Source: Antedon mediterranea
Taxonomy: Eukaryota; Echinodermata; Crinoidea; Comatulida; Antedonidae
Assembly (NCBI RefSeq): GCF_964355755.1
Contig: NC_092673.1
Location: 749,001-813,000 of the forward strand
Length of the DNA: 64,000 nucleotides
Direction of reading: 5' to 3'
Shown here: positions 3,501 to 63,600 of the stretch, one piece after another
Layout of the letters: every line of letters starts with the position of its first letter
Numbering within the stretch: position 1 is the stretch's first letter
Notes under the pieces: generated by a model
Databases searched by the model: none
What the model was told of the DNA's origin: nothing
Seen by the model: only the letters and a program-made list of their open reading frames with translations
Program-made: the position numbers and the translations under genes

Positions 3501-6500
3501 ACAATGTTGAACAAGCTGGTAAAGAAAGCTAATCCTGGCCAGAATAAGTAAATACTGTTAACGTGTCAGTGTTTTAGTAGAATTCTTTTGTATTAATGAT
3601 TGATATTTTATTATGGTACTATTAGACTATTGGGTCCAAAAACTTGGATCATGAAATTCCCATGTACTTCATTAGAGGCTTTTGTTTTTCTCAGTTCGTT
3701 CTGGAACCTAATTTTCTAGAATTATGTGCATAAAACATCAATTGCCTTTATGAAATGTTCATGTCCTTATGGTTTATATTATGTGCATAAAACATCAATT
3801 GCCTTTATGAAATGTACATGTCCTTATGGTTTATATTATGTGCATAAAACATCAATTGCCTTTATGAAATGTTCATGTCCTTATGGTTTATATTATGTGC
3901 ATAAAACATCAATTGCCTTTATGAAATGTTCATGTCCTTATGGTTTATATTATGTGCATAAAACATCAATTGCCTTTATGAAATGTTCATGTCCTTATGG
4001 TTTATATTTTGTCAAATTATATATTCTTGTATTTTGTTTTATATTTAGATTTTCTAAAACAGTTGAAGTGCTTAATCTATTGGAGCAAGAGAAATGTACT
4101 TGGCGATTGCTGGGTTCATTGTATCAAGACAGACAGTCCGCAGAGGATGAGGAAACAATGGACACAGGGATGGATGTAAGTTGACATAATAAACCTATTG
4201 TTATAAACATGGACACCGGGATGGATGTAAGTTGACATAATAAACCTATTGTTATAAACATGGACACAGGGATGGATGTAAGTTGACATGATAAACCTAT
4301 AGTTATAAACATGGACACAGGGATGGATGTAAGTTGACATAATAAACCTATTGTTATAAACATGGACACCGGGATGGATGTAAGTTGACATAATAAACCT
4401 ATTGTTATAAACATGGACACAGGGATGGATGTAAGTTGACATGATAAACCTATAGTTATAAACATGGACACCGGGATGGATGTAAGTTGACATTAAATAA
4501 ACCTATAGTTTAACAATCATCAACTTTGCAATTTTCTTCCTGAATAGCAGCATTATTTCAAATTGTTTCTATTCCTTAACTTTTAATAGATGGAAAGAAA
4601 ATCAGAGCAGGAGATATCAAATTCCTTATTTGCTAGGAATTCATCTCTGCGTCAGAGTCAAATTGTTGTTGATTGGTTGGAGAGAAATGCTGTTGACCAA
4701 ATTCAAGATTATTATGAAAATGTTGAGTTCTACTCTCAATCTGTTTGTTGGTAAGTATTATTATGGATAACAAGACAGCAAACATTCTATAAATGGATTG
4801 TATTTATTAGTTAGCTTGAGTATATCATGACTTTATCTGTTGCTTTTTAAGGTTGAATAGTTAATCTCAATATCTGAAATTTAAAATGAAATTCAATTTC
4901 AGGGAAAATACTTTGCATTCACTTCAACAAAAAACTGCAAGAGTATCAAGAAGTGATCGACAACTGGTATCCCACATGGATCCTGACGCACCTGTGAGAG
5001 AGAATAAACCACTTGCAGAACTGGATAGGGTAAATATAACATGACAGAGAATAAGCCAATTGAAAATTTCAGATGTAAACAGGTGTAACTTAATGTATAA
5101 TTAACAGGTGTCTGTAAGGCAATATTTTGTGAGGCATTCTTAAAATTATGTGATTTCAATTGTGTGATCACTGACATCATTTCAGGAAGATGAGGCTAGG
5201 CTGCTGAAAAACCTCTTTGCTAAGATTCGAGCTGGGCAGCTTGAGGATGCTCAAAGACTGTGCAAGAAATGTGGTCAGGCTTGGAGAGCAGCAACATTAG
5301 AGGGCTGGAAACTCTACCATGATTCCAATATGAAAGCTTGTAAGTGTAGCACCGTAGCATTGAATTTATCATTCCTTTTAATCTGAGGAGCATTACAGAA
5401 TTCTATATATATATATATATATATCTATATTCTAAGATTTATATTTGTCTTTCTAACATGTTGTACTTGGTTTAGTATCAACAGGTAATATAGCAGCAAT
5501 TGAAGGCAATCCAAACCGTGATATCTGGAAGGCGACAGCCTGGCGTATGTCTCAAGATGAGCGGTTTCACCCATATGAGCGGGCAATTGCAGCTGTGTTT
5601 AGTGGAAACCTTAAAGAGGTATAGTTTTCAAAACTTATTATTATTAATGGACACCATATTTGGACTCGGCATGCCCAAATTAGAACATAAATTAACAACA
5701 TGTGAACGCTAACATACATTTGCCGATATTCAACAGACACATATTACAATTTTGTATTAATCCATCTTTTAAGTAAATATTATAATTGTGCCGTCACAGG
5801 TTCTTCCAGTGTGTCGTTCATGGGATGATTGCCTGTGGGCTTACTTTAGGGTGCTGGTTGACCAACAAGTGGAACAGGAAATCCGGGAAAATGTTCAACC
5901 TGGACGGGAAAGCCAACCACTTCCGGATAATTATTTTGATAAATTGTAAATATACATTTCGTTTTCTTTTTATATACTAGTCTTATCTTGTAAATATTTT
6001 GTATCAGAAATATAGAAATATTATAGTTTCATTCTTTTATCAATTGTATATATTGATGTATCAATTCTAGTTTTGGCATGAGTAAAATTAAGGCAAACAA
6101 ATACGGTTATGGCACCATGTTATATTTTGTTTGGTTTTTTTTTTCAGATTAACAACTAATAAAATCTTTCAAGATTTACAAGCTTTTCCAAGTGAGGTAT
6201 GTTTTTTTTATTCCAATTGTTTTGATTTTCTCATAAAACAATGTAATATATCAATGAGATGTACTAACTGTTTCATTTATTTTTAAATATTAGGACATTG
6301 AAATGCAGTCAAAACAAAAATACCACTTGATTCAGAAATACTTAATTCTAGGAGAAATTGATGGTAAGATACAGAAATGCTATATATTCTATATAAATTC
6401 CATTCCTACTAATATTTATGCTCTTATGTAATTGCTAACAAAAAATTTACTTGATCTAAGTTTCACACTCTCATCTTTGATATATAGACAACTGTGGCTG

Positions 6501-9500
6501 GATTTATCAAACTTTCTTTTTTTTAAACTTTGCCATAAATCCTTGATAAGCAAAAATATAAGCAAATATTGATAAATGCCTTCACAGAATAAATTTCTAG
6601 TTGATGAAAATCTATCTGTTGTTTTTTCTTCAAAGCTCTTGTTGAAGAAATGGGAGAGTGGCTCCTAGATGATGTGCACCGTCCATCTCAGCATCTTGTA
6701 CGGTTCATGGCTCATGTTGTGCTCTTTTTCCGTGGTCTTGGGTTAGACAGTAAAGAAGAGATTTGTACTGCCATCATAGAGGCTTATGTAAAGGTAAATG
6801 CTGATCATCCTGTACTTACTGTTAAGCATTGTAACAAGTATCAGTTAGTAGCTGTCATACCATCCCCCATTTAGGGGTTTGGTCAATCCCCTTAGTAACT
6901 TTGGTCAATCCCCTTAGTAACTTTGGTCAATTTCATTGTTAATGCAGTCAGGGTATAATTAAATCCCACCCACCAGAAATTGTGTACCTAGGACTGTTCT
7001 CGGTCATGTACACTAATACAAGATACAAACAGCCAATTCTAAGTCTATACAGTATTTTCATCACACTAAATCATTTTATCTACATTTTTTAATAAAATGA
7101 AAGAAAGAAGAAACAATAATTAAGTAAAGGCATGGCACATAATAATATTATTATTGCATTTATGTGTTTCAGAATTTAATTGATGTTAAACATCTAGAGT
7201 TGGTGTCTGTTTATGCTGCTCAACTCCCTGAAAGTCTTCAGGTTGAATGCTATGCACATTTCTTAGAAGGTAAATTACATTAAACATAGCGAATTAATGA
7301 GATAGAATCCATCCCACAATGCAATTGTGTTGTATGAATTGAAGTATCAGTCAACTCTCATAAAGACTTCAAAAACCAGAAACACTTTGACTTACAATTG
7401 TACAGTGTTTTTAAAAAGTCGAAAGCACTTCTGTTTTTAGGAGTGTGTGCCTTACAGTGTACACTCTTTAACATAAATGTGCATAAGCACTTTAAGTGAC
7501 CAATCATGTCCTGATTATTATGGTCAATTGTCTCATACAAATTGATTTTGTTTATTACAGGAATTCAAGAAAAGGACACAAGAAAATATTGCCTACAATT
7601 AGCAGAAGAAGCAGGTACAGTACTGCATTTGAACATAGTATTCTCCCAAAGCAATGTGGATGCTACTGCTACCTCTCTGTAATCTAACTGTGTGGTTTGT
7701 AAAGATGGCCAGCAATTGCCATGCTTGTGTTGCATTGCTCTGATGTAACAAAAAAGTAAAATAATATTTTTTTGGAAATTGACAATCTAACACTCCAGGG
7801 AAATTAGAAGGTGCCCCAGAGTAAATAGCATGAGCATCGGAACAGTAGTTTAGGGGGAGATAGAGGAACAAAAATACAAAGGGTTGTGTATAATGCTAAT
7901 GCAATATCTATTTCTCCAGGACTATAATATTGATTATTCATATTTGGTTTTAATTTGATTATTTTTACATACATATTAAAATTGTAGGCTTAGACGTACC
8001 CAAGATTACAAAGACTGTAGTTGAAAACATACGCAATAGAGATCTCACTGAATTCACAGCAGATACAGGATCTACACCAGCTATAGATGCTGCTACCTCT
8101 CAGGTAAGCTATCACAGCCAACTTACCCAATGTTTTGAGTTATATAAAGTTTTGCAATTAGTTTTGTTCTGTATTATATTTATCTGATATAAGAGTTCTC
8201 AGAGTGTTTCTACTGAGAGGCTGCTCTGTATTTAATAAAGTTCATTTGTTACAGGTTGATCGTAAAAAGATAGAGGCTATTGATTGGTTAGTTTTTGATC
8301 CGTCACAGAGGGCCGAAGCATTGAAGCAAAGCAATGCTGTCATGCGTACTTTCTTAGGTTAGTATATAAATCCAATAATCACACCCACTAATTGTTGCCA
8401 AATTTTTTACGCAGAACTTTCAAGGACTACACTTACTTACAGTAATGGTACGTATCATGTAACCTTTGTAAACTAAACCTCTTTATGTATCACATAATCT
8501 GCAGAACATACTGTTAATGTTCTTGTAGCCAGACACATGGCTGTCATTGACGAATACTTAGTATCTGTTGACTTCACTTATGGTGTACTCAAGATCTACG
8601 TTTATACCATGCTATACACTTATATTTTTTTAACAATTTTGTTTATATTACTAAATTTAATTTTTATTTTCTGCATCTCGTTCAGGAATCAAAAAGCATG
8701 ACGCTGCCAAAGAAGTGTTCCACAAGATTCCTGGAGACACTATCGATGTGATAATGAAGAACTGGTTGGGACATGCTGGCAGAGTGAGCCTTCCTGTTGA
8801 AGATGACAATGCTATCAAAGAGTATCTTTGTATCAAAGCTTATCTAGTAAGTCACCTCAGTAATAAGCCCACATTAATGTATAAGCCTGTCCCAATTACA
8901 TGTTCACTTTTGTACATTGTGGAAGTCTGAGTTGGAGGGTCACACCATTCTCAGAGATTTGGTTTGTGGTTTTTCTGCTATTGATCTTTCTCAGCACTCC
9001 TTTCTGAGTCTGAGGGTCACAGTACCATTAACGGTGATTGGTTTTTCTGCTTTTGACTCTCCTCATCATTCTGCTTCTTCCCTTCACTGTTTGCTTGTTT
9101 GTTTTTTGCTGAAAGGAATAAAATACGTTGTTTTCATTGTGTAGTGAGCATGAATTTATTTCAAGAGCTGTTCATGAACATGGATTTATTGATTTACAAT
9201 GTTGTAATCTTGTTTATCTCTCTAGAATGCATTAGATACATTTAACGATTGGTTTGAACATTTTCACAATAAGAAGCCAGTTGAACCCACAGTGATTGAG
9301 GGGGCAACATTCCACCAGAAGGTACAGCATGAACATGAAGAAAAAGAATTCAAGGTGATTTCATCAAACTTATTATTTTGTGTACATCCAATCCTCTCAA
9401 AATTGGACACAATATGGGAAAGGCGTCATTTTGGTTGTGAGAAAAATGTTACTACTTAATCGAAATAGACCAGGAAGGCAAAATGTCTAGAGCATCATCA

Positions 9501-14859: not shown

Positions 14860-16060
14860 GTCTTAATATCTACAGTACTAATTGATAAATGTTTCCTCTT
14901 TATACTAAAGATTTTACCTTTTGTGTAGCTGCGAGGGCCATAATCTCTCCTTTGCCAGCCTAAACCATACAAGATGTATCACCTTTACAAAAGGCCATTC
15001 ACCAAACAGGATTACAATGGATTTACCCTATTTAATTAATAAGTAGTATTTGTACTGTGAAGAGCTTGATCATTATGTATATTTGTTTGTATATATTTTA
15101 ATTTTATTTAAGATATAGATTTTAAGAAATAGGTTTTAAGATGTATTTATAATGTTTGTTAATATTAATTGTATAATGTACATAGCCTTGCATTTGCGTG
15201 GTTTACTTGTAGAAACCATGTTAAATTACTGTTAAAGGTTAACTTTGAGTTTAAAATTTCTATACCTTAATATAAAATATAAACATTTGCAACCACGTTG
15301 ATATTAACCCATTGAAGAGTGAGCATTATGAAATACAGTTGCCTCTTTTTAAAAAGTGGTGCAAGGACTTATTCCTTGAATTTTATTGATTTTTTCAGAC
15401 TGGTACTGGTAGCATCACTTTTGAAAATGTGGGTCAATTCTATGATTCCTCTTCTGCTGCAAAGTTGAAAACATCATAGGCCTACAGTTTTCATCAACAT
15501 GGTTGTAAATGCTTATAGTGTATATTAAACATTAGATATTTTAAGCCTGGAGTTACCCTTTAAAAGTATGGTTTCTCTAAACACCGAAAAGCAAATGCAG
15601 ATACCAACATTGATTGTTCTGAAACATTCATCGTTTATTATTCTACTACATAACTGTATGTGGCAGTACTGTAGTTGGAAGGATGGGTAAATGGATTCTA
15701 TTATTCTACTACATAACTGTATGTGGCAGTACTGTAGTTGGAAGGATGGATGAATGAATGGATTTCATAACATTAATGAAGAAACATTTTAGATAATCGT
15801 ATATATAATATTTATGATTATATTTAGTATTTGATTACATTTTTTTCAAGACAGACAGAATAAATTAAATAATAATGTATAAAATTGTTAATTGTGAGAT
15901 TTTGATTTTAGCTCATTTAGGCCAATAAGTTTTTAATTCTTTTTTTTTTATATATTGATATTCTTGGTATATACATGGACCTTAATTTATAGGCTAGATC
16001 TATGGTATATGACGGATAATACATTTTTACACAGATGTAAAACTTGCTCAAGTATAAAAA
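14860..16060 (+). repeat. Duplicated 3' flank, copy 1 (homologous to 27780-30010)
   Basis: Collinear blocks are shared with 27780-30010. These include catagccttgcatttgc (15181 versus 28009), gaaaccatgttaaattactg, aagcctggagttacc (15545 versus 28771), the pair of 63-bp repeats at 15637, ttagctcattta (15909 versus 29921) and ttacacagatg (16028 versus 29996). Order and strand are conserved, showing a segmental tandem duplication offset by about 13-14 kb. Confidence 0.8.
15637..15765. repeat. 63-bp tandem repeat x 2
   Basis: Two copies of a unit starting ttattattctactacataac and including cagtactgtagttggaagga. The same doublet is present at 28880-29017, so the doubling predates the segmental duplication or has been homogenised. 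Confidence 0.85.
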
Positions 16061-16319: not shown

Positions 16320-17220
16320 TCATTTAGGTATATTTATTCATAAAAAGACATCAAAATACAACGGCAGCCAAAAGGCTGAAAAGTAGTATTTTACAAAATT
16401 TGATAAAAATATATAAATACATTATGTATAAAAGGTAAAACTAGTTTAAAAAAAAAAATAATAATTTACCACATTAAAATTGGTCTACCTGTAAGTTAAA
16501 ATAGTGCCAGCCTATTCAATATTCATCATTAATGAGTCGGACTAAAAAGGGGACTGGTGAAGATCTAAATCTTTCTGTACGACCAAACGGGATTTTGAGT
16601 AGAGGCTTACTCGCAGACCTCAGGGTTCTGCTAATGTCACGAACAGGGGGAAGAATGCTTCTAAATGTATCGGACTTTATTATTCCTTTACCAAATTTCA
16701 GTAAGAGTTGGACTCTTCTGTTAACTAGCGATGGAAGATCTGACAATTTAAGAGCAGACTCGTAGGATACATAGTTCATGCCATAAATGATTCGTAGAGC
16801 TCTTTTTTGAATTCTTTCTATTGACTTAGTTTGGTCTTTCGTAATTGAACTGTGCCACACAGGGCATGCATATTCAACTAAAGGACGTATATAGCAAGTA
16901 TATACTTGTAGTAAATCTTTAGAAGGCGCCTTGGCTTTCTTAAGTATAATCAAAGTGTACAAACGTCGACATGCTTTAGCAACGATATCATGAATATGCA
17001 TCTCCCATTTAAGGTTATCCTGCAAGGTGACACCAAGCAGTTTAATGTGATTTACACATTTAAGATCATGGCCATTTAGATTGAAACTGGGAGGAGGACA
17101 GTCGGACTTTAGGAAGGAAATACGCATCACATTGCACTTGGATGGCTTGGGGAGGACTCTATTTATCAAACACCAATCATCAAGTTGATTTAAAGTGTCC
17201 TGCGAAACGTCGTTCTCTTT
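16320..17220 (-). mobile_element. 5'-truncated non-LTR retrotransposon (LINE) with reverse transcriptase C-terminus
   Basis: The minus-strand frame from about 17215 to 16516 encodes the end of a LINE reverse-transcriptase ORF. It has the LxQLDDWCL..N..LPKPSKC motif, the thumb-like HIKLLGVTLQDNLKW motif, then LLQVYTCYIRPLVEYACPVW and ERIQKRALRIIYG, all characteristic of CR1/L2/Jockey-type elements. The catalytic palm (YxDD) is absent, so it is dead on arrival. A 3' UTR containing cagccttttggctgc and ending in aataaatata reaches about 16320. The exact clade cannot be fixed by eye. Confidence 0.88.
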
Positions 17221-17599
17221 TAAGTGTTATTTTTATATTATGTATTTACAATAAACGTACCCTCATTCGTAATAAATGATTACACAAGGAAAGTTCATTT
17301 TATTCTTTATTATAGTGCGAGGCTGTGTATGTACTATGTGCTGGTTCAATATTCAATATCAAAAGAACAAATAAAATCTGAAAATAAAGTATAATATTTG
17401 GATGTAGTGCCCTCACAAAACAAAATTCACAAATAAATTGTGTTCTTTATTATACATTTAGTTTAGATCATTGGACTGCTGACTCTTGTACTTGTTATAG
17501 TAATCTTATTTACTTTAGCAGTCCCTGACCATTTCATCTCATATATTTTATATGGTTTGTTGGTCAATAAATGAAATTAATTAATTCACATGAACCTTT
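17221..17599. other. AT-rich non-coding sequence
   Basis: I see no gene, repeat or regulatory signal I can support between the LINE fragment and the following tandem repeat. Confidence 0.4.
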
Positions 17600-27779: not shown

Positions 27780-30010
27780 TACTGTGTAATACCAAAGAGT
27801 ACCAGTAGGTACCTTTTTACAAAAACGAAAAAGTGTATGTGGATTCCTGTAATTTATCCTTAGCCAGACCAAACCATACACATCATTAGAGGATTAAGCA
27901 TATTAATAAGTTAATTGTTATAGATTTTTAGTGAAGAGCATTCATGATCTTATATTTGAATTGCTGTATATAGTTTTACAATAAGATGTACTTAAGAGAG
28001 ATTAATATAGCCTTGCATTTGCCTCCGGTTTACTTGTGGAAACCATGTTAAATTACTGTAAAAGGATAACTCGGAGTTTAAAATGTTGCTCTACACAACA
28101 ATTATAAAACAATTACAACCACATTGATATTGATCTATTGTAGTGAAGAGCCAGCATTAATTTATTTTTTTAATGAATTTTAATTGTTTAATACAAAGAT
28201 TAGTCTGGGACCTGAGTAAAGATGTGTATGTATTTAATTTAGAAGATAATATAGGATAATTTGACCCCAATGAACAACATGGGATGTGTGCCAAAATCAC
28301 TATTTGTGTCAAATTGTTCAGAATATACATAATTTGGTCTAACACAGCTTTTAGTGAAAAAAATGACTGGAATTGCGGATTACCCAACATTTGACCCAAA
28401 AAAAGGGGGGGGGGGGAAATACATTTGTGGGTTAGATTATTCTTGGTATGAAAATGAAAGCCCATGCTATCCGCTTCTACCAAACTTGTATTTGTATTGA
28501 AAATGTTTAAAAATGAGTCTGATGTAGTTTCAAATCTATTTTGGTTTATTTATAATAGTTAAATAATTTTTTATTTGGTATCAAATGACTTTATGCAAAT
28601 TCTTAAAAGTTGCTAAAAGTGAAAGTCGAAAATATGCAGTTGAAGAACATTAGGAAAAAAAAGATGTCAGTTTCAAAGTTGTGAAACATGTAGGATTATC
28701 ATAATGACAATATTACATTTTTTTTTTATTGATGTGGTTGTAAATGCCTATATTTTAAACATTAGGTTTAAGCCTGGAGTTACCATTTATAGTTGTAGTT
28801 TCTCAAATGCCAAAATTAAATGCAAAATAAAAAAGAAAAAAAATGCAGATACAGTACCAACATTGATTGTTCTGAAACATTTATCGTTTATTATTCTTAC
28901 TACATAACTGTATGTGACAGTACTGTAGTTGGAAGGATGGGTAAATGGATTCTATTATTCTACTACATAACTGTATGTGACAGTACTGTAGTTGGAAGGA
29001 TGGGTAAATGGATTCCATTAAATTAATGAAGGAAAATGTTAGATGATAAAGACTATATTTAATTATTGCTTACCTATAAAAAAAAATTTATATATTGGAC
29101 AGTGTAGATATTGCATTATAAGTATAGATAGACGTATGAATGGATTTCATTTCATTAATGAAGGAAAAGGTTGGATGATAAATACTAGATTAAGCATTCA
29201 AAAGAAAAAATATATTGCACAGTAGATATTGCATTATAAGTATATAACATCTTTATTTTGTTGCTGCATGTTCAATACTGCTTCCCAATCTGGTATCATT
29301 ATCAATAATGTAAAATGGATAAGATAGAAAAGGTTAGCAGATTTTATACACACCAACATAATATGAAGCTATTTGTTTGCTAAAGATGTTTTGCTCCTCC
29401 AAAAACAAGACAATGAAGATTTATAAAATCAGACTTTAAATCAATTAACAGGTATTAAATGTTTTTAATCGATTCAATTTTTTTAGATATTAAAATGGCA
29501 TATTATAAAAAACATTAAAACAAAAAATTGTTTTAGGGGGACAATATATCTTTAACAAATTTGTATATACAGTATTATCATTATTATTTTTTAGAATATT
29601 AGGCCTATATAATAGTTAAATACAAAGTTATTTATATTTAAATCCAAAGGCAAAATACTGAAAAAATGACAGTGCTGTGGGTATCAGTGGCTGGATCTCA
29701 ATGGAGATACAAAAAAAATCGAAAAACTAAATCAAAACGATAAAGTAAAACAGCCAAAAAAGTTAGCAGAGCTTTCGGGCAACACTATATTAACTATTAT
29801 AACAAGTTATATATATATAAATTTTGTTTAATGTTGATGTAATTACTGTTTAATTAATTTTGCATACAAATGGTTGAATATACTTAATAAATGTTTTTTT
29901 AGGATAAATTTAGACCAACGATTAGCTCATTTAGACCAATTATAATTTTATTATTTTATACATTTCTTTGGTATAAATAATTGATAATAAAATATTACAC
30001 AGATGCAAAA
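27780..30010 (+). repeat. Duplicated 3' flank, copy 2 (homologous to 14860-16060)
   Basis: See the blocks listed for 14860-16060; the same order is present here with insertions, which makes this copy longer. It includes the 63-bp doublet at 28880-29017, followed by two diverged relatives (gaatggattt..attaatgaaggaaaa) to about 29230. A poly-G run (gggggggggg) is at 28407. No exon is seen between 27277 and 30463. Confidence 0.78.
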
Positions 30011-30463: not shown

Positions 30464-52390
<21,927 letters not shown>

Positions 52391-54352: not shown

Positions 54353-54525
54353 AGGATTTATCATACCTCAAACATGGTAGTGATATTCCCAAATATGGTA
54401 GTGACGTTCCCAATGTAGTGATATTCCTAAATATGGTAGTGATATGTCATCATCTTGTCCATATATGGGCACAACACATTTTGTTGTCAAATACAGTTTG
54501 ATAGTGTAGACAAGGTTTTACACAT
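54353..54525. mobile_element. Diverged copy of the 50712 MITE family
   Basis: tatggtagtgatattcc repeats, tccatatatgggcacaacac and cagtttgatagtgtagacaa match the interior and right end of the element at 50712-50877; the left end is lost. In the CFAP46 3' region. Confidence 0.6.
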
Positions 54526-57600: not shown

Positions 57601-60600
57601 AAGAATTATTTTTTCAGGGGGACAATACATCTTTAAGTATTATTTTAAAGGATACATCTAAAAGCATGCGTGTCAACACCAGAGCAGTGTGGAGGTACTT
57701 GACGGTCGAGTGGAAGCTGTTAAAAAAGAATAATTATTATGAATCAATCATTGTGAAATAAAAGATGTTGATATACAGTTTTCAATAAAAATATGGAATG
57801 TAAAAGAATAACATATCTGTTGTTAAACTCTTATGGATAATGAATAGGTCCATGTACAGTTGTTCATTACAGTTATACTGTATGCATTGTTTATAGGTCC
57901 AGCATACACAATTAGCTCAGCAAGTCACTAGACAGGTGTATTACAGTATATCATACAATGATCAGATTAAATAACACATCACAGGGGAGGAGCATATTAA
58001 TACATCTTATCAAATCAAGATGCTTACAATTTTAACAGCCCTGTTCTTAAATAGCACATCACAGAGGAGGAGCATATTAATACATCTTATTAAATCAAGA
58101 TGCTTACAATTTTAACAGCCCTGTTCTTAAATAGCACATCACAGGGGAGGAGCATATTAATACATCTTATTAAATCAAGATGCTTACAATTTTAACAGCC
58201 CTGTTCTTATCTTTTGCTTGTTTTGCTTTTAGAGCCTCCTTTTTCTTCTTCTCATCTAATTGTTCCTCAACTTAAAAAAAAACAAAAGATAATTGATAAT
58301 TCATTTTAGAAAACAGGCAAGTAAAAACCATTACACAGAGCGAAACAAATCGAACACCTAAGTTATAGGGTAGACTCCAGCTCTACAACGTAGAAGAAGA
58401 AGAATAAATGTTAATAAACAAACTGTCAGACAAATTAATTATAAATCATAATTTTTAAAATAAAACAAAAACTATTTACCCTCTGGTTCCTGGTGCCATC
58501 TGTTATAGAGCATCTGGAATGAGAAATCCCGAGAAAGAGAGAAGATGGAAGGCGATGCCAGAAGTGGTAGAGCCTCTAGAGGGAGTTCCATTAGCCATTT
58601 GTCCGCCAGGATAATAACATACTCTTCCTGATTAACTTGTCCAGCTGATGCTGCATTATCCAGAGCCCTGAATAGAGGAATAAGAGAGAATCAATTTTGC
58701 TGCAATATCTCATAATATGTTATTGTATTTGTACTGACTGTAATTTTGAAAGCATAGAGGAAATCTTGATGAAAAAAAACCAAGCTATTTGTATTTTTCG
58801 CCATAAAAAAAAAATGGAACATTTAATAATCTTTTCTTTGATGTCTTTAAAATATTGTCTGTTATCCTCTTCTGAATGGGAAAGAAGTGGGATATAATAC
58901 TCTACCTAAAGGCAGGTTCCATGGCTGTTGTGATAGGAAGCAGGTATTCATGCATCTTTTGTACAAGTTCAGAAAATTCAGCCTCAAGCTGTTCCTCTTC
59001 TAAGTCATTTTCTCTTGAAAAATCCTAAAACATAAACAATAGGAACATTTCTTGCAATTAAACATTATAATTACAACATGGCAGTGTCCTTACAATTTGA
59101 TATTTGGTAAAATATTTATAAAGAAATAATTTGCTATTATTTAATAAATATTCCAGACTATGTGAAAGCAGACTTTTATTGAGGTCCAAAACGTTCCAAA
59201 TTCTTTTACCATTAAAAACACATTCGAAATAGTATAATTTTCAGAAAAACCAGACATAGGAGGTCGGTCGGCCGGTATTGGGGAGTATTAAGAACATCTA
59301 ACATTCATAACTGAATAAATTGTCTGTTGATTAAAATATTTATTGTATTATGGTACAAACCTTAAAATCATTTTGTATATCTTCTGAGAGGTTCTCCATC
59401 ATTTTGTTCCTCTGCACTTGTTGTGCTCTGCGATACTCAGCTTTCAACAAAGCCTGCATGACATTCACTTTGTGTTGTTTGAAGCGTTGTAAGAGGCTAT
59501 CCAGAGCATCATTGTCAACCATTGTGCGTGTAACACATGCCTTAGACGTGCTGGCAGCTACTCCTTTTTGTTTGGTTTCTTTACCACCAGTTGGTTTTGG
59601 TTTATCAAGAAGAGTTCCATATAAAATTGACCTTAAACAACAAAATGTACATATTCAATCACATTGTTACTGTCTGGCTCAACCCATTTTAATATTGAGA
59701 TATAATTGAATACAAATATTGATTGATTGATCGCTTTATTTCAGAATAAAAATTCCATATACAAACAATACAAAACGGACAATCACACTTAAAACAGGAT
59801 TTTCTCCCATATAGTGAAGTAATTTGAATAGTTTTTAATTCATTGATATTCTCACTTACCTGTCTTCCGAGTGCTGGAGGACAAGAATGTTAAAATTTAC
59901 TGGTAAATCTTTTAATAAATCCAAATGGTTAGGATTAATCTTCAACTGTTTCCAAGCCTAGATGGTTAAAAACAACAAAGTAATTAAAACTGCAGATATA
60001 CTAAACTCTCTCAAAAACCAAAGGACCAACATTCTTTCTAGTATTAAAAAAACAGGGAGAGAAAAATGGAGAGAGAGGGAGTATATAGTAATATTAAACC
60101 GGTCAAGTAAAAATACTTTTCAAAATGTCAATGTTTGTAAAGGCTTCATATACCCAGTTGAATTTTTTCATTAATTTAAATTATTGCCACTTCTTGTCTA
60201 TTTTAATTCATGTACAGTGCACTGAGAGCTTGCTTATAATTGCGCTATATAAGAATGAACTATTATTATATATTTACCTGTGAATTTTCCATTAAACTTT
60301 GATCAAGTGCTTTCATAAGGTTACCTCTGGATTGATTGCTGATGATGTTGTTTGACATCAAGTGCTTTCTTTGGTGAAGCAAAGCAGCTTGTTGACATCT
60401 ACTTGGGTCTGGTTGACATCGCTCCAAAGCATCCATCATGACAGTTGAACATCGGCAACTCTAAAACAACAATGGTTTTTTATATTCTCTTTATTTTGAA
60501 AAATACTGACCAATTTACATCTCGTGGCCAAATAGCTAAATTGTCAAAAAATACATAAAAAGTGTAAGAATTAACAGCATTAAAAAGGGAAAAAACAATC

Positions 60601-63600
60601 AGGCAAAAAAATAAAAAACACATCAAAAGTAAAAAGAAAAAACAAGTAGATATAAGACATTCTTACGCCTAGTCTACTTTGCTACTGTTTGGCGAATTGA
60701 TTGCATTAGGTAATTACCTGATAAAGAGCCAGATACAGTGATGATGTCAGAGGGTCATACTGGCCACAACATTCAACCATCTCTAATGAGGCATTTGCTG
60801 CAAGATCCTACAAAGAAAAAAAAACAGTTTTTACTTTCCTAAATATTCTATGAAAGAGAAAAATGCCATTGATTGTATTTACTGAAAAGATGTGAAATAT
60901 GTGCAGTGCGATTTAGTTTCCAAATTTGGACAATTTCATGGTATCCCTATTTTAATGTTTCTTTTACTCATTTAATTTCCATACATTTTCTTATTTATTT
61001 AATGTATTCTTTTCAAGGGTACTTACAATAAGCTGTTCTTTCAAAGCTAGCTGGACACACTGACCGAATGCCTCCGAAGCCTGGGTAAGATATATCAAAG
61101 AAGTGTCCTGATCAGCCTGGAAAAACAAATATTAAAATGTTGAATATTCTCTGGTATCCCATAATTATATAAAGGAACAAGGGTTCTTTATATCTATTTC
61201 ATATCACCAAGCAAATCTCTGGAGTTTACACACACTGGAGCATCAGCACGTGTGTTGTGTAGGTAAACTCTGGAGTTTACACACACTGGAGCATCAGCAC
61301 GTGTGTTGTGTAGGTAAACTCTGGAGTTTACACACACTGGAGCATCAGCACGTGTGTTGTGTAGGTAAACTCTGGAGTTTACACACACTGGAGCATCAGC
61401 ATGTGTGTTGTGTAGGTAAACTCTGAAGTTTACACACACTGGAGCATCAGCACGTGTGTTGTGTAGGTAAACTCTGAAGTTTACACACACTGGAGCATCA
61501 GCACGTGTGTTGTGTAGGTAAACTCTGAAGTTTACACACACTGGAGCATCAGCACGTGTGTTGTGTAGGTAAACTCTGAAGTTTACACACACTGGAGCAT
61601 CAGCACGTGTGTTGTGTAGGTAAACTCTGAAGTTTACACACACTGGAGCATCAGCACGTGTGTTGTGTAGGTAAACTCTGAAGTTTTGCTAGACAATGTA
61701 CCTGTGCATGCTTTGCTAATTTTGCCAGTTTTACAGCCTCTTTTACAGATGTTGTGCCCTCTATCTGACCTTCTGTTGATTCTGTGTCAACTTCTTCTTC
61801 TGCTTTTGCCACCGATGCTGTTTCACTGGCACCAAATCCCTGTTGATATATCAATTGGTAAATACCTCATTAATTAAAATTCTTAAATTTCACTACACTT
61901 TCACAGTATATTAAGTGAAAAAAAAAATTAATAATTTACGGTAGTAGTACCCTATTAAAAGATAGCTTCATAATAAAACATAGTTTTTTATGAATAGGGA
62001 TGTCCACTTTATAGGGGTGTTGCAAAGAAGGGGTTCTTCTGTAAAGGAAATAACAATTTGAAGCAAATGAGTTTTTACCATAAGTTGTAAATCCCACAAG
62101 TTGGCCGAATCTGGTGAATTGTGAACGGCCATGATGCGTAAACATCGACCAATGTTGTACAGAGTCTAAAATAAAACAAATAGTATAATATTATATCTTG
62201 TAATTATTATCTCTTATTATTTTATAAAAGTAGATTGTTAACACAAATAAATTATTGTGGTAAACGGAATATAAACCATCGACAAAAATGAATATATATA
62301 ACAGTATATAATAGTAAACAAACTGACCTTTGCCCTCAATTCCTGAATTGGCCCAGCAAGACTATGGGCTGCTGTCAATTCTATCAAGATCTTTGAGGAA
62401 AGCTCACTAAAAAAAAAAAAAATTGAATAATCTCTATGGTATTACAAAAATCTAAACACCTGTATTTTTTAAAATAATATAAAATATTGTTACAGATGGT
62501 TTAAATATATTTTCATATTATATTTACCTTGTCAGGGTCTGCCATTTCATCTCTGTGTCAGTCAATGTTGGGGACTCTGCAATGTAAGTCTCCACAAGCT
62601 GAAAATTAAGAATACATACATCAGACTTTTTAAAACTAAAACATTGTTATTACTTAAATATACATTCAGAAAACCTATCTGATAATCCAAAGGTGCCTTT
62701 GTGTTATATATATATACATGTACATCCAAGTATACAATCTTTTCTTTTCCAAGATGTAAAAAACCCAACTCCTTCAGGTTCCTCCAGGTTTATAATTAGA
62801 ATATTAACAATAAAACAGAGTAAAAAAATATACTTACTTTTATAACAGACGGCTTACGTGCTTCAGTTATTTTATGCTTTCGTTCTTCATTAGAATGGAT
62901 TACAAAAATATCGATAAGCAACTCTGCCAGAGTGTTCTTGATAGCGCACGCTTGTCTCTGAATCGGCAACACAACACCACCAATCTAGAAATAAAGCCAA
63001 GATTACATTTAAAAAAAGATGCAGACATCATGTAAAATTTTATTGTGCTGTCATGTTCCACTCATTGGGTCTACTTTGATCTGCTGATTCAAACTTTATA
63101 TAATCTCAATTCATCCTCACCGGGAAAAATCATTTTCTAAAGCTCTGTCTACACTATTACACTTAATGTGACAAACTTGATGTGCCCACATGTATATGAT
63201 CACTGCCATATTTGGGCATATTACACTTTTTTGTTTAAACTACTGTATTTTGATACTGTAACATTCGTTTCATTGCTTTTAAAACAATAATGTACGCATG
63301 GCATACCTGTTGTATTGCAGTCATACCAAGCACATCTTCCAATCTCTCATTGGTCAATCGCACAGCCTTTTCTAAAAGTTCATATGCTTGTAATAGATAA
63401 CTGTGCTGTAGATCAGTATTGTCGCTATCACACACAAACAACCTATATAAAAGAATCATACAATTATGATGAGGTACATCAGGGCTGTAGCCATAAGTAC
63501 CGTATGGTTGGTAAGGTTTCAACTTGACCACCGATCCACTGTAGCCAGCACAGGGGATTGTCCCCCTTTTTTTGCAACCACCACCCGTCCTTTTGATTTA

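Follow-up and report, generated by a model that had tools for sequence, protein, structure and literature searches.

The question raised by this locus is whether short tandem repeats lying across 5′ splice sites in three genes of one stretch of Antedon mediterranea DNA (64,000 nucleotides; hereafter, the window) reflect a shared process, or whether they are intronic repeats that chance to touch an exon. The case that we followed most closely is an array across a donor of CFAP46, which TRF places at 57967–58209 on the minus strand (period 80, 3.0 copies, 97% matches, score 465). A repeat search recovers two copies at 96% and 98% identity to the reference copy, with start-to-start spacings of 80 and 80. 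The first-pass annotation had described an 80-bp unit, present three times, with about 22 coding bases and a GTAAGC donor, and TRF and the sequence confirm this: the unit comprises 22 exonic and 58 intronic bases, including the donor. It had set the array at 57975–58214; the array is there, with the position off by 5–8 bases and the last five bases outside the TRF array. The exon concerned (58188–58270, minus strand; 83 bp as predicted from the sequence, the exon finder and the flanking protein match; translation ending ...AKDKNRAVKI) has its last 22 bases in the array. On the minus strand its 3′ end reads ...AAGAACAGGGCTGTTAAAATT/GTAAGC, with ...AAAATT/GTAAGC at the junction and the GT of the real donor starting at 58187. 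In sense order, copy 1 (58130–58209, minus strand; TRF and repeat search) holds the real exon end, and copies 2 and 3 are intronic. Protein continuity points to the GTAAGC at 58182–58187 as the real donor; the sequence of the same strand holds a first spare GTAAGC at 58102–58107 in copy 2 and a second at 58022–58027 in copy 3. ATT/GTAAGC is retained in both extra copies, and the copies differ by private changes. The whole array has a single match in the 354-Mb genome (E = 6 × 10−122; the search skips very common words and leaves out some stretches), and a three-copy match over 243 bp lies far beyond what random bases would give by chance. A transposed or dispersed element as the source of the array was ruled out by this one genomic match.

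The identity of the gene comes from the joined exons, which align with 'Cilia and flagella associated protein 46' (PDB 9ijj, chain A; E = 1.4 × 10−26) across the junction with a one-residue gap. The protein shows no copy-sized insertion in this alignment; that is, no extra CFAP46 copy is translated. Splicing at the first spare donor would lengthen the transcript by 80 nt and bring in an in-frame stop. A repeat within the protein was also considered and ruled out, as the reading to the next donor meets a stop. Separately, the CFAP46 exons between about 57000 and 58660 match the Pfam Peptidase_C50 (separase) profile (E = 1.6 × 10−8, over the cut-off), and a 51-bp × 9 array at 61217–61686 begins about 15 bases past another CFAP46 donor without spanning it.

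Two further arrays in the window, both on the plus strand, have the same architecture. A 51-bp × 7 array at 4153–4510 (TRF, Pfam) spans a donor with its GT at 4176 and includes 23 exonic bases; a 139-bp × 3.9 array at 40739–41288 (TRF, alignment, Pfam) spans a POLR2B donor with its GT at 40831 and includes 92 exonic bases. The former belongs to a Nup84/107 family gene, which we take as NUP107: Pfam PF04121 is found at 4 × 10−17 and 7 × 10−7 on two exons other than the array exon, which itself scores 8.5 × 10−5, just under the cut-off. Alignment to known proteins shows that POLR2B continues past its array without a copy-sized insertion. Because the protein enters the next exon without such an insertion in both the CFAP46 and the POLR2B alignments, the copy on the exon side appears to be the one still translated. 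GT is kept in two of two extra copies in CFAP46, three of three in POLR2B and six of six in NUP107. The first-pass annotation had seen a like architecture with unrelated sequences in three genes, the other two of which we identified from its remark as NUP107 and POLR2B, and the comparison of units bears it out: with the units paired as circles, the longest shared words measure 5, 8 and 5 bases for same-strand matches and 10, 7 and 8 bases for opposite-strand matches, and the three units look unrelated because these words are so short (at most 8 and 10 bases, respectively). One unit common to CFAP46, NUP107 and POLR2B was ruled out by this word comparison, which was run from 4 letters on both strands. 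The three genes together carry ten arrays, of which three span donors, none spans an acceptor and seven are intronic; about 1.0 donor and about 1.0 acceptor case are expected under uniform placement (P = 0.077 for three or more donor cases). The window was treated as the discovery set and kept out of testing.

TRF lists 35 rows in the window as a whole. A 54-bp × 77 array at 31547–35728 begins about 17 bases past a POLR2B donor without spanning it, and another POLR2B intron holds a 5.4-kb TRF array of 153 copies of a 37-bp unit (44929–50379). A near-identical 63-bp unit occurs in two copies at each of two places (15636–15756 and 28889–29020), which marks it as a dispersed family. A 21-bp repeat family (CAAATATGGTAGTGATAT-like) is also dispersed, at 54369–54445 and, outside the window, at 7032–7133 of sample locus L013, and was a source of false homology and exon calls. 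The minus strand at 16516–17226 carries a 236-aa open frame that we take to resemble part of a LINE reverse transcriptase.

An independent sample was assembled by fixed rules from 32 gene regions outside the window: 19 dynein heavy-chain, 9 CCT and 4 myosin. Dynein regions were 10 kb in the sense direction, starting 300 bases ahead of the first AAA_6 match; myosin regions were 9.5 kb at the four best-scoring places, with the remaining myosin places left out; and CCT regions came from PF00118 places, leaving out those on C8 near 9.19 Mb, C10 near 3.07 Mb and C2 near 24.78 Mb. Coding exons were called from paralog similarity with a small splice-aware exon finder. One dynein locus, L010, was dropped from the array counts because it is a near-copy of L009 (94–98% identical over long matches); the two lie 384 kb apart (C1:2.21 and 2.60 Mb) and may be a recent duplication or a haplotype copy. 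The array counts thus cover 31 loci. These contain 438 predicted exons, of which 305 have support from homology, from Pfam or, for L018 and L023, from a hand mark. Arrays had a period of at least 24, at least 75% matches and at least 1.8 copies. Those within predicted exons were dropped (L013:7032, the dispersed 21-bp repeat; L035:7790; L004:2932), four predicted exons within arrays were removed (two each in L012 and L028_29_36) and one L028_29_36 acceptor was relocated from 2169 to 2307. In L005, 5,118 bases read N. Some array classes were refined after inspection, and counts shifted during curation. As an aside on the myosin search, 19 of the matches listed on C3:19.6–25.1 Mb of the genome (G000) fall on about the same myosin-head segment (profile positions 342–408), which marks a large cluster of myosin-like copies within 5.5 Mb.

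The sample contains 54 arrays, of which 10 span donors (two each in L003 and L012, one each in L017, L018 and L023, and three in L028_29_36), 2 span acceptors (L012:677 and L032:7567, the latter at an exon that lacks support) and the other 42 lie within introns. If arrays were placed uniformly in collapsed coordinates, 4.50 donor and 4.49 acceptor cases would be expected (P = 0.0097 for the donor excess, P = 0.0070 for the donor–acceptor difference; n = 54), and placement over whole loci gives P = 0.0090 and 0.0053. The acceptor deficit is not significant by itself, either for the 54 arrays (P = 0.16) or in the supported-exon variants (P = 0.22, 0.09 and 0.35). The donor excess and the difference persist when at least 10 exonic bases are demanded (9 donor versus 1 acceptor; P = 0.0083 and 0.0027) or at least 90% matches (8 versus 2 among 40 arrays; P = 0.018 and 0.020). 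Introns with both exons supported give 6 versus 1 among 27 arrays (P = 0.048 and 0.025), or 5 versus 1 among 21 arrays when at least 90% matches are also demanded (P = 0.057 and 0.046). With at least one supported flank, there are 9 versus 1 among 44 arrays (P = 0.011 and 0.003), the donor cases lying in 6 loci and the acceptor case in 1 (locus bootstrap, P = 0.001). The ten donor cases sit in six of the 31 loci, three of them in one CCT gene and two each in two dynein genes. The weakest are L018, with an AAA_7 match under the cut-off (E = 5.8 × 10−5), and L023, with 6 exonic bases and a 21-aa piece that has no Pfam hit; the L023 mark was made for a peptide that we take to resemble CCT.

The founder unit of an array, obtained by collapsing the array to one unit, covers 10 of 432 donors and 2 of 431 acceptors. 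Moving into the intron from the donor, cover is 2/431 at +60, 4/431 at +80, 2/416 at +100, 2/376 at +120 and 5/344 at +150; 60 bases ahead of acceptors it is 6/429. Array-bearing donors score higher than the rest (medians of 3.55 for n = 10 and 2.78 for n = 422; P = 0.013) on a matrix whose training set included some of them. Either selection or chance may lie behind the difference. Arrays that begin within 50 bases past an untouched donor are about as frequent as arrays that end within 50 bases ahead of an acceptor (five each, counted by eye).

Other counts speak against a donor preference. A raw test for 30-mers with a copy within 5 kb marks 6 of 274 donors and 3 of 270 acceptors at homology-supported borders, a difference that is not significant (Fisher's exact test, P = 0.50), and 13 of 402 donors and 5 of 400 acceptors across all predicted exons. 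Intronic 30-mers have such copies more often than borders do (1,542 of 16,456; 9.4%). Paired within introns of at least 260 bases, donors have copies in 4 cases versus 12 for deep intron (n = 147; sign test, P = 0.039) and acceptors in 2 versus 9 (n = 146; sign test, P = 0.039). Two of the calls were corrected: the donor L026:153 is a false one in this test, a 21-bp repeat with copies 1.7 and 3.7 kb away, and the acceptor L028_29:169 turned out, with 2 kb more sequence, to lie in coding sequence within an array that spans a donor. None of the 52 donors or 52 acceptors in the four myosin loci has a copy. The bulk of repeat DNA sits elsewhere than at borders. We think that the raw depletion of borders stems from long arrays being counted at every base, and founder units were adopted because the 30-mer test counts long expanded arrays many times. 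A genome-wide search for the pattern pair AGGTAAGT N{20,50} AGGTAAGT showed no excess (371 versus 1,990 for the reversed control); this count tallies array copies rather than arrays, the donor matches listed come mostly from a few arrays, and it decides little.

The arrays at donors are alike in their polarity. The first-pass annotation had proposed that extra donors sit downstream of the real one, and in all 13 donor cases (3 in the window and 10 in the sample) the extra copies do extend into the intron, downstream of the real donor. In 12 of these 13, splicing at the next donor position would introduce an in-frame stop (10 of 10 in one set, with additions of 28–139 nt, and 2 of 3 in another). 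The exception is L017, in which the next position is weak (AAG/GTTGAG) and would add 14 codons in frame; with the frame kept open, an intron-only reading is therefore not forced there. The acceptor duplications on supported exons (L012:855 and L017:8086) have their spare copies upstream, with AG kept. Judging from coding continuity, the copy nearest the exon seems to be the one in use at donors and acceptors alike. The L017:8086 duplication, with two copies 200 bases apart, is absent from the TRF list, and it lies 200 bases upstream at the same exon as the donor-spanning two-copy repeat at 8241–8322 (sense coordinates) of L017. The acceptor-spanning array at 677–891 (sense coordinates) of L012 has a 77-bp unit with telomere-like AACCCTAACCCTAACCC and perhaps came from break repair. 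Donor-spanning arrays also form a series of decay: those in L003 and L012 are perfect or near-perfect (eight copies at 100% in L003:4742), L017:8278 is a two-copy remnant at 85%, the spare donor of L018:9352 has no GT, and the degenerate array in L023 has GT at one of six spare positions (as placed by a script alignment that may slip by a base or two).

We consider it probable that local tandem duplications arise throughout introns, that those astride donors are tolerated and those astride acceptors are rarer, and that the CFAP46 array is a young, locally born 'mirage' minisatellite. A tandem duplication would have taken the last 22 exon bases together with about 58 intron bases, copying the exon end with its donor, and a further event would have produced three copies; the structure, the single genomic place and the high identity are observed, and the order of events is our reconstruction. 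The spare donors lie further down, in the intron, and would be removed along with it. This position past the real donor may be why donor-astride duplications are tolerated, and the arrays may persist close to neutrally because the encoded protein is unchanged. Acceptor-astride duplications would put spare acceptors upstream, and their rarity perhaps reflects mRNA that is spoiled more often. The common cause in the three genes would then be genome-wide short tandem duplication in introns combined with a splicing filter, possibly with extra seeding at donors. The CFAP46 array itself probably serves no function.

The donor preference is suggestive, not proven, because it comes from ten cases in six genes, array classes were adjusted once cases had been inspected, and raw coordinates show fewer repeats at borders than in introns. 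The shared process proposed in the first-pass annotation finds partial support: the architecture recurs outside the window (10 of 54 arrays at donors versus 2 of 54 at acceptors), but the raw counts give no enrichment of repeats at borders over introns. The donor excess exceeds the neutral uniform expectation, and tolerance alone leaves the excess unexplained. That 5′ splice sites are preferred places for tandem duplications to be founded or kept, at several times the level of acceptors and of neighbouring intron, with about 2% of donors carrying a minisatellite of their own exon end, is a possibility that we take seriously but stop short of favouring. Border seeding and selective tolerance are not separable from these counts.

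Coincidence, whereby arrays fall evenly across introns and intron edges and the three window cases are picked-out luck, seems to us rather unlikely. The window count (3 of 10 against 1.0 expected), the non-significant border-copy difference and the position of donors below the intron level in raw coordinates all fit it, but it sits poorly with the 10 donor and 2 acceptor arrays of the sample, for which about 4.5 each are expected (P = 0.007), and with the locus bootstrap on the 9 versus 1 subset. Unlikely too, and slightly more so, is that the DNA of 5′ splice sites is a hotspot of tandem duplication, one conceivable cause being damage linked to transcription and another pausing at strong donors. 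Cover at donors above points deeper in the same introns (10/432 versus 2–5 of 344–431) and the higher scores of array-bearing donors are what such seeding would produce, but non-spanning arrays near donors and near acceptors, small as their numbers are, are about equally frequent.

The remaining explanations concern what the CFAP46 array does, or whether it is real. It is improbable that the spare donors act as a switch that regulates CFAP46, through stop-adding downstream splicing and mRNA decay or through extra U1 binding. Both spare donors are intact and the first would add a stop, but AT-rich introns are expected to contain chance stops, old copies decay (L017, L018 and L023) and the units are unrelated among the three window genes. 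We give even less credence to the array being a step in intron or exon gain, in which copies of an exon end and its donor later turn into new exons or introns; models of this kind appear in PMC3087553 (lancelet globins) and PMC4974935 (tandem genomic duplication), and in L017 the frame would stay open through the copy, but no CFAP46 copy is translated and the protein has no insertion of that size. An assembly artefact, for which there is nothing direct in favour, is scarcely credible, given that the array is short (243 bp) and the assembly comprises 18 contigs, that the copies carry private differences and that a like structure recurs at other loci. Duplication throughout introns with tolerance at donors remains our preferred account.

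If tandem duplications are indeed preferentially founded or kept at donors, then both minisatellites and surplus splice donors would arise systematically at donors. Were the bias genome-wide, each array would be a natural experiment in which two to ten near-identical donors compete; with the exon-proximal donor seemingly the sole one used, the rules of donor choice could be read from ordinary RNA data. The birth of minisatellites would be tied to gene structure and would supply raw material for intron and exon gain. If the bias fails, these are ordinary intronic minisatellites that chance to touch an exon.

Border-spanning repeats are a known kind; what may be new is the possible bias towards donors. 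The literature searched, from which subscription papers were mostly absent, showed no genome-wide count of donor-spanning versus acceptor-spanning minisatellites, which is a weak negative. Mirage minisatellites of lancelet genes were reportedly described by Canestro et al. in 2002. Lancelet DNA has a G+C content of about 41%, and that of the window is lower (about 33%). In human segmental duplications, PMC2812944 describes variable internal tandem repeats at exon–intron boundaries; as here, minisatellite units lie at exon/intron borders and are able to change gene structure, but the human repeats alter exons or introns in transcripts, whereas the encoded CFAP46 protein looks unchanged. Intron gain by tandem genomic duplication, as PMC4974935 presents it for ATP2A1 and a potato RdRp, likewise involves a duplicated segment that includes a splice signal. 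It creates a new intron, whereas in CFAP46 an existing donor is copied and no new intron is apparent from the protein alignment; and it starts from an exonic segment with AGGT that gives both splice sites, which the CFAP46 unit (22 exonic and 58 intronic bases, ATT/GTAAGC) is not. The closest likeness is to the lancelet mirages, which PMC3087553 and PMC3902484 describe as tandem repeats across exon/intron borders in Adh (Adh3), troponin C, the globins BflGb6 and BflGb9, and PGBD5, with splicing reported as undisturbed and a proposed route to new introns. As in these genes, the CFAP46 repeat spans an exon/intron boundary and its copies carry the splice signal. According to the same papers, lancelet units range from tens to over 100 bp with normal mRNA reported, and haplotype length differences and RNA are documented, whereas the CFAP46 array is known from one assembly and is read through protein continuity; and lancelet mirages occur at both borders, whereas donors predominate in our sample.
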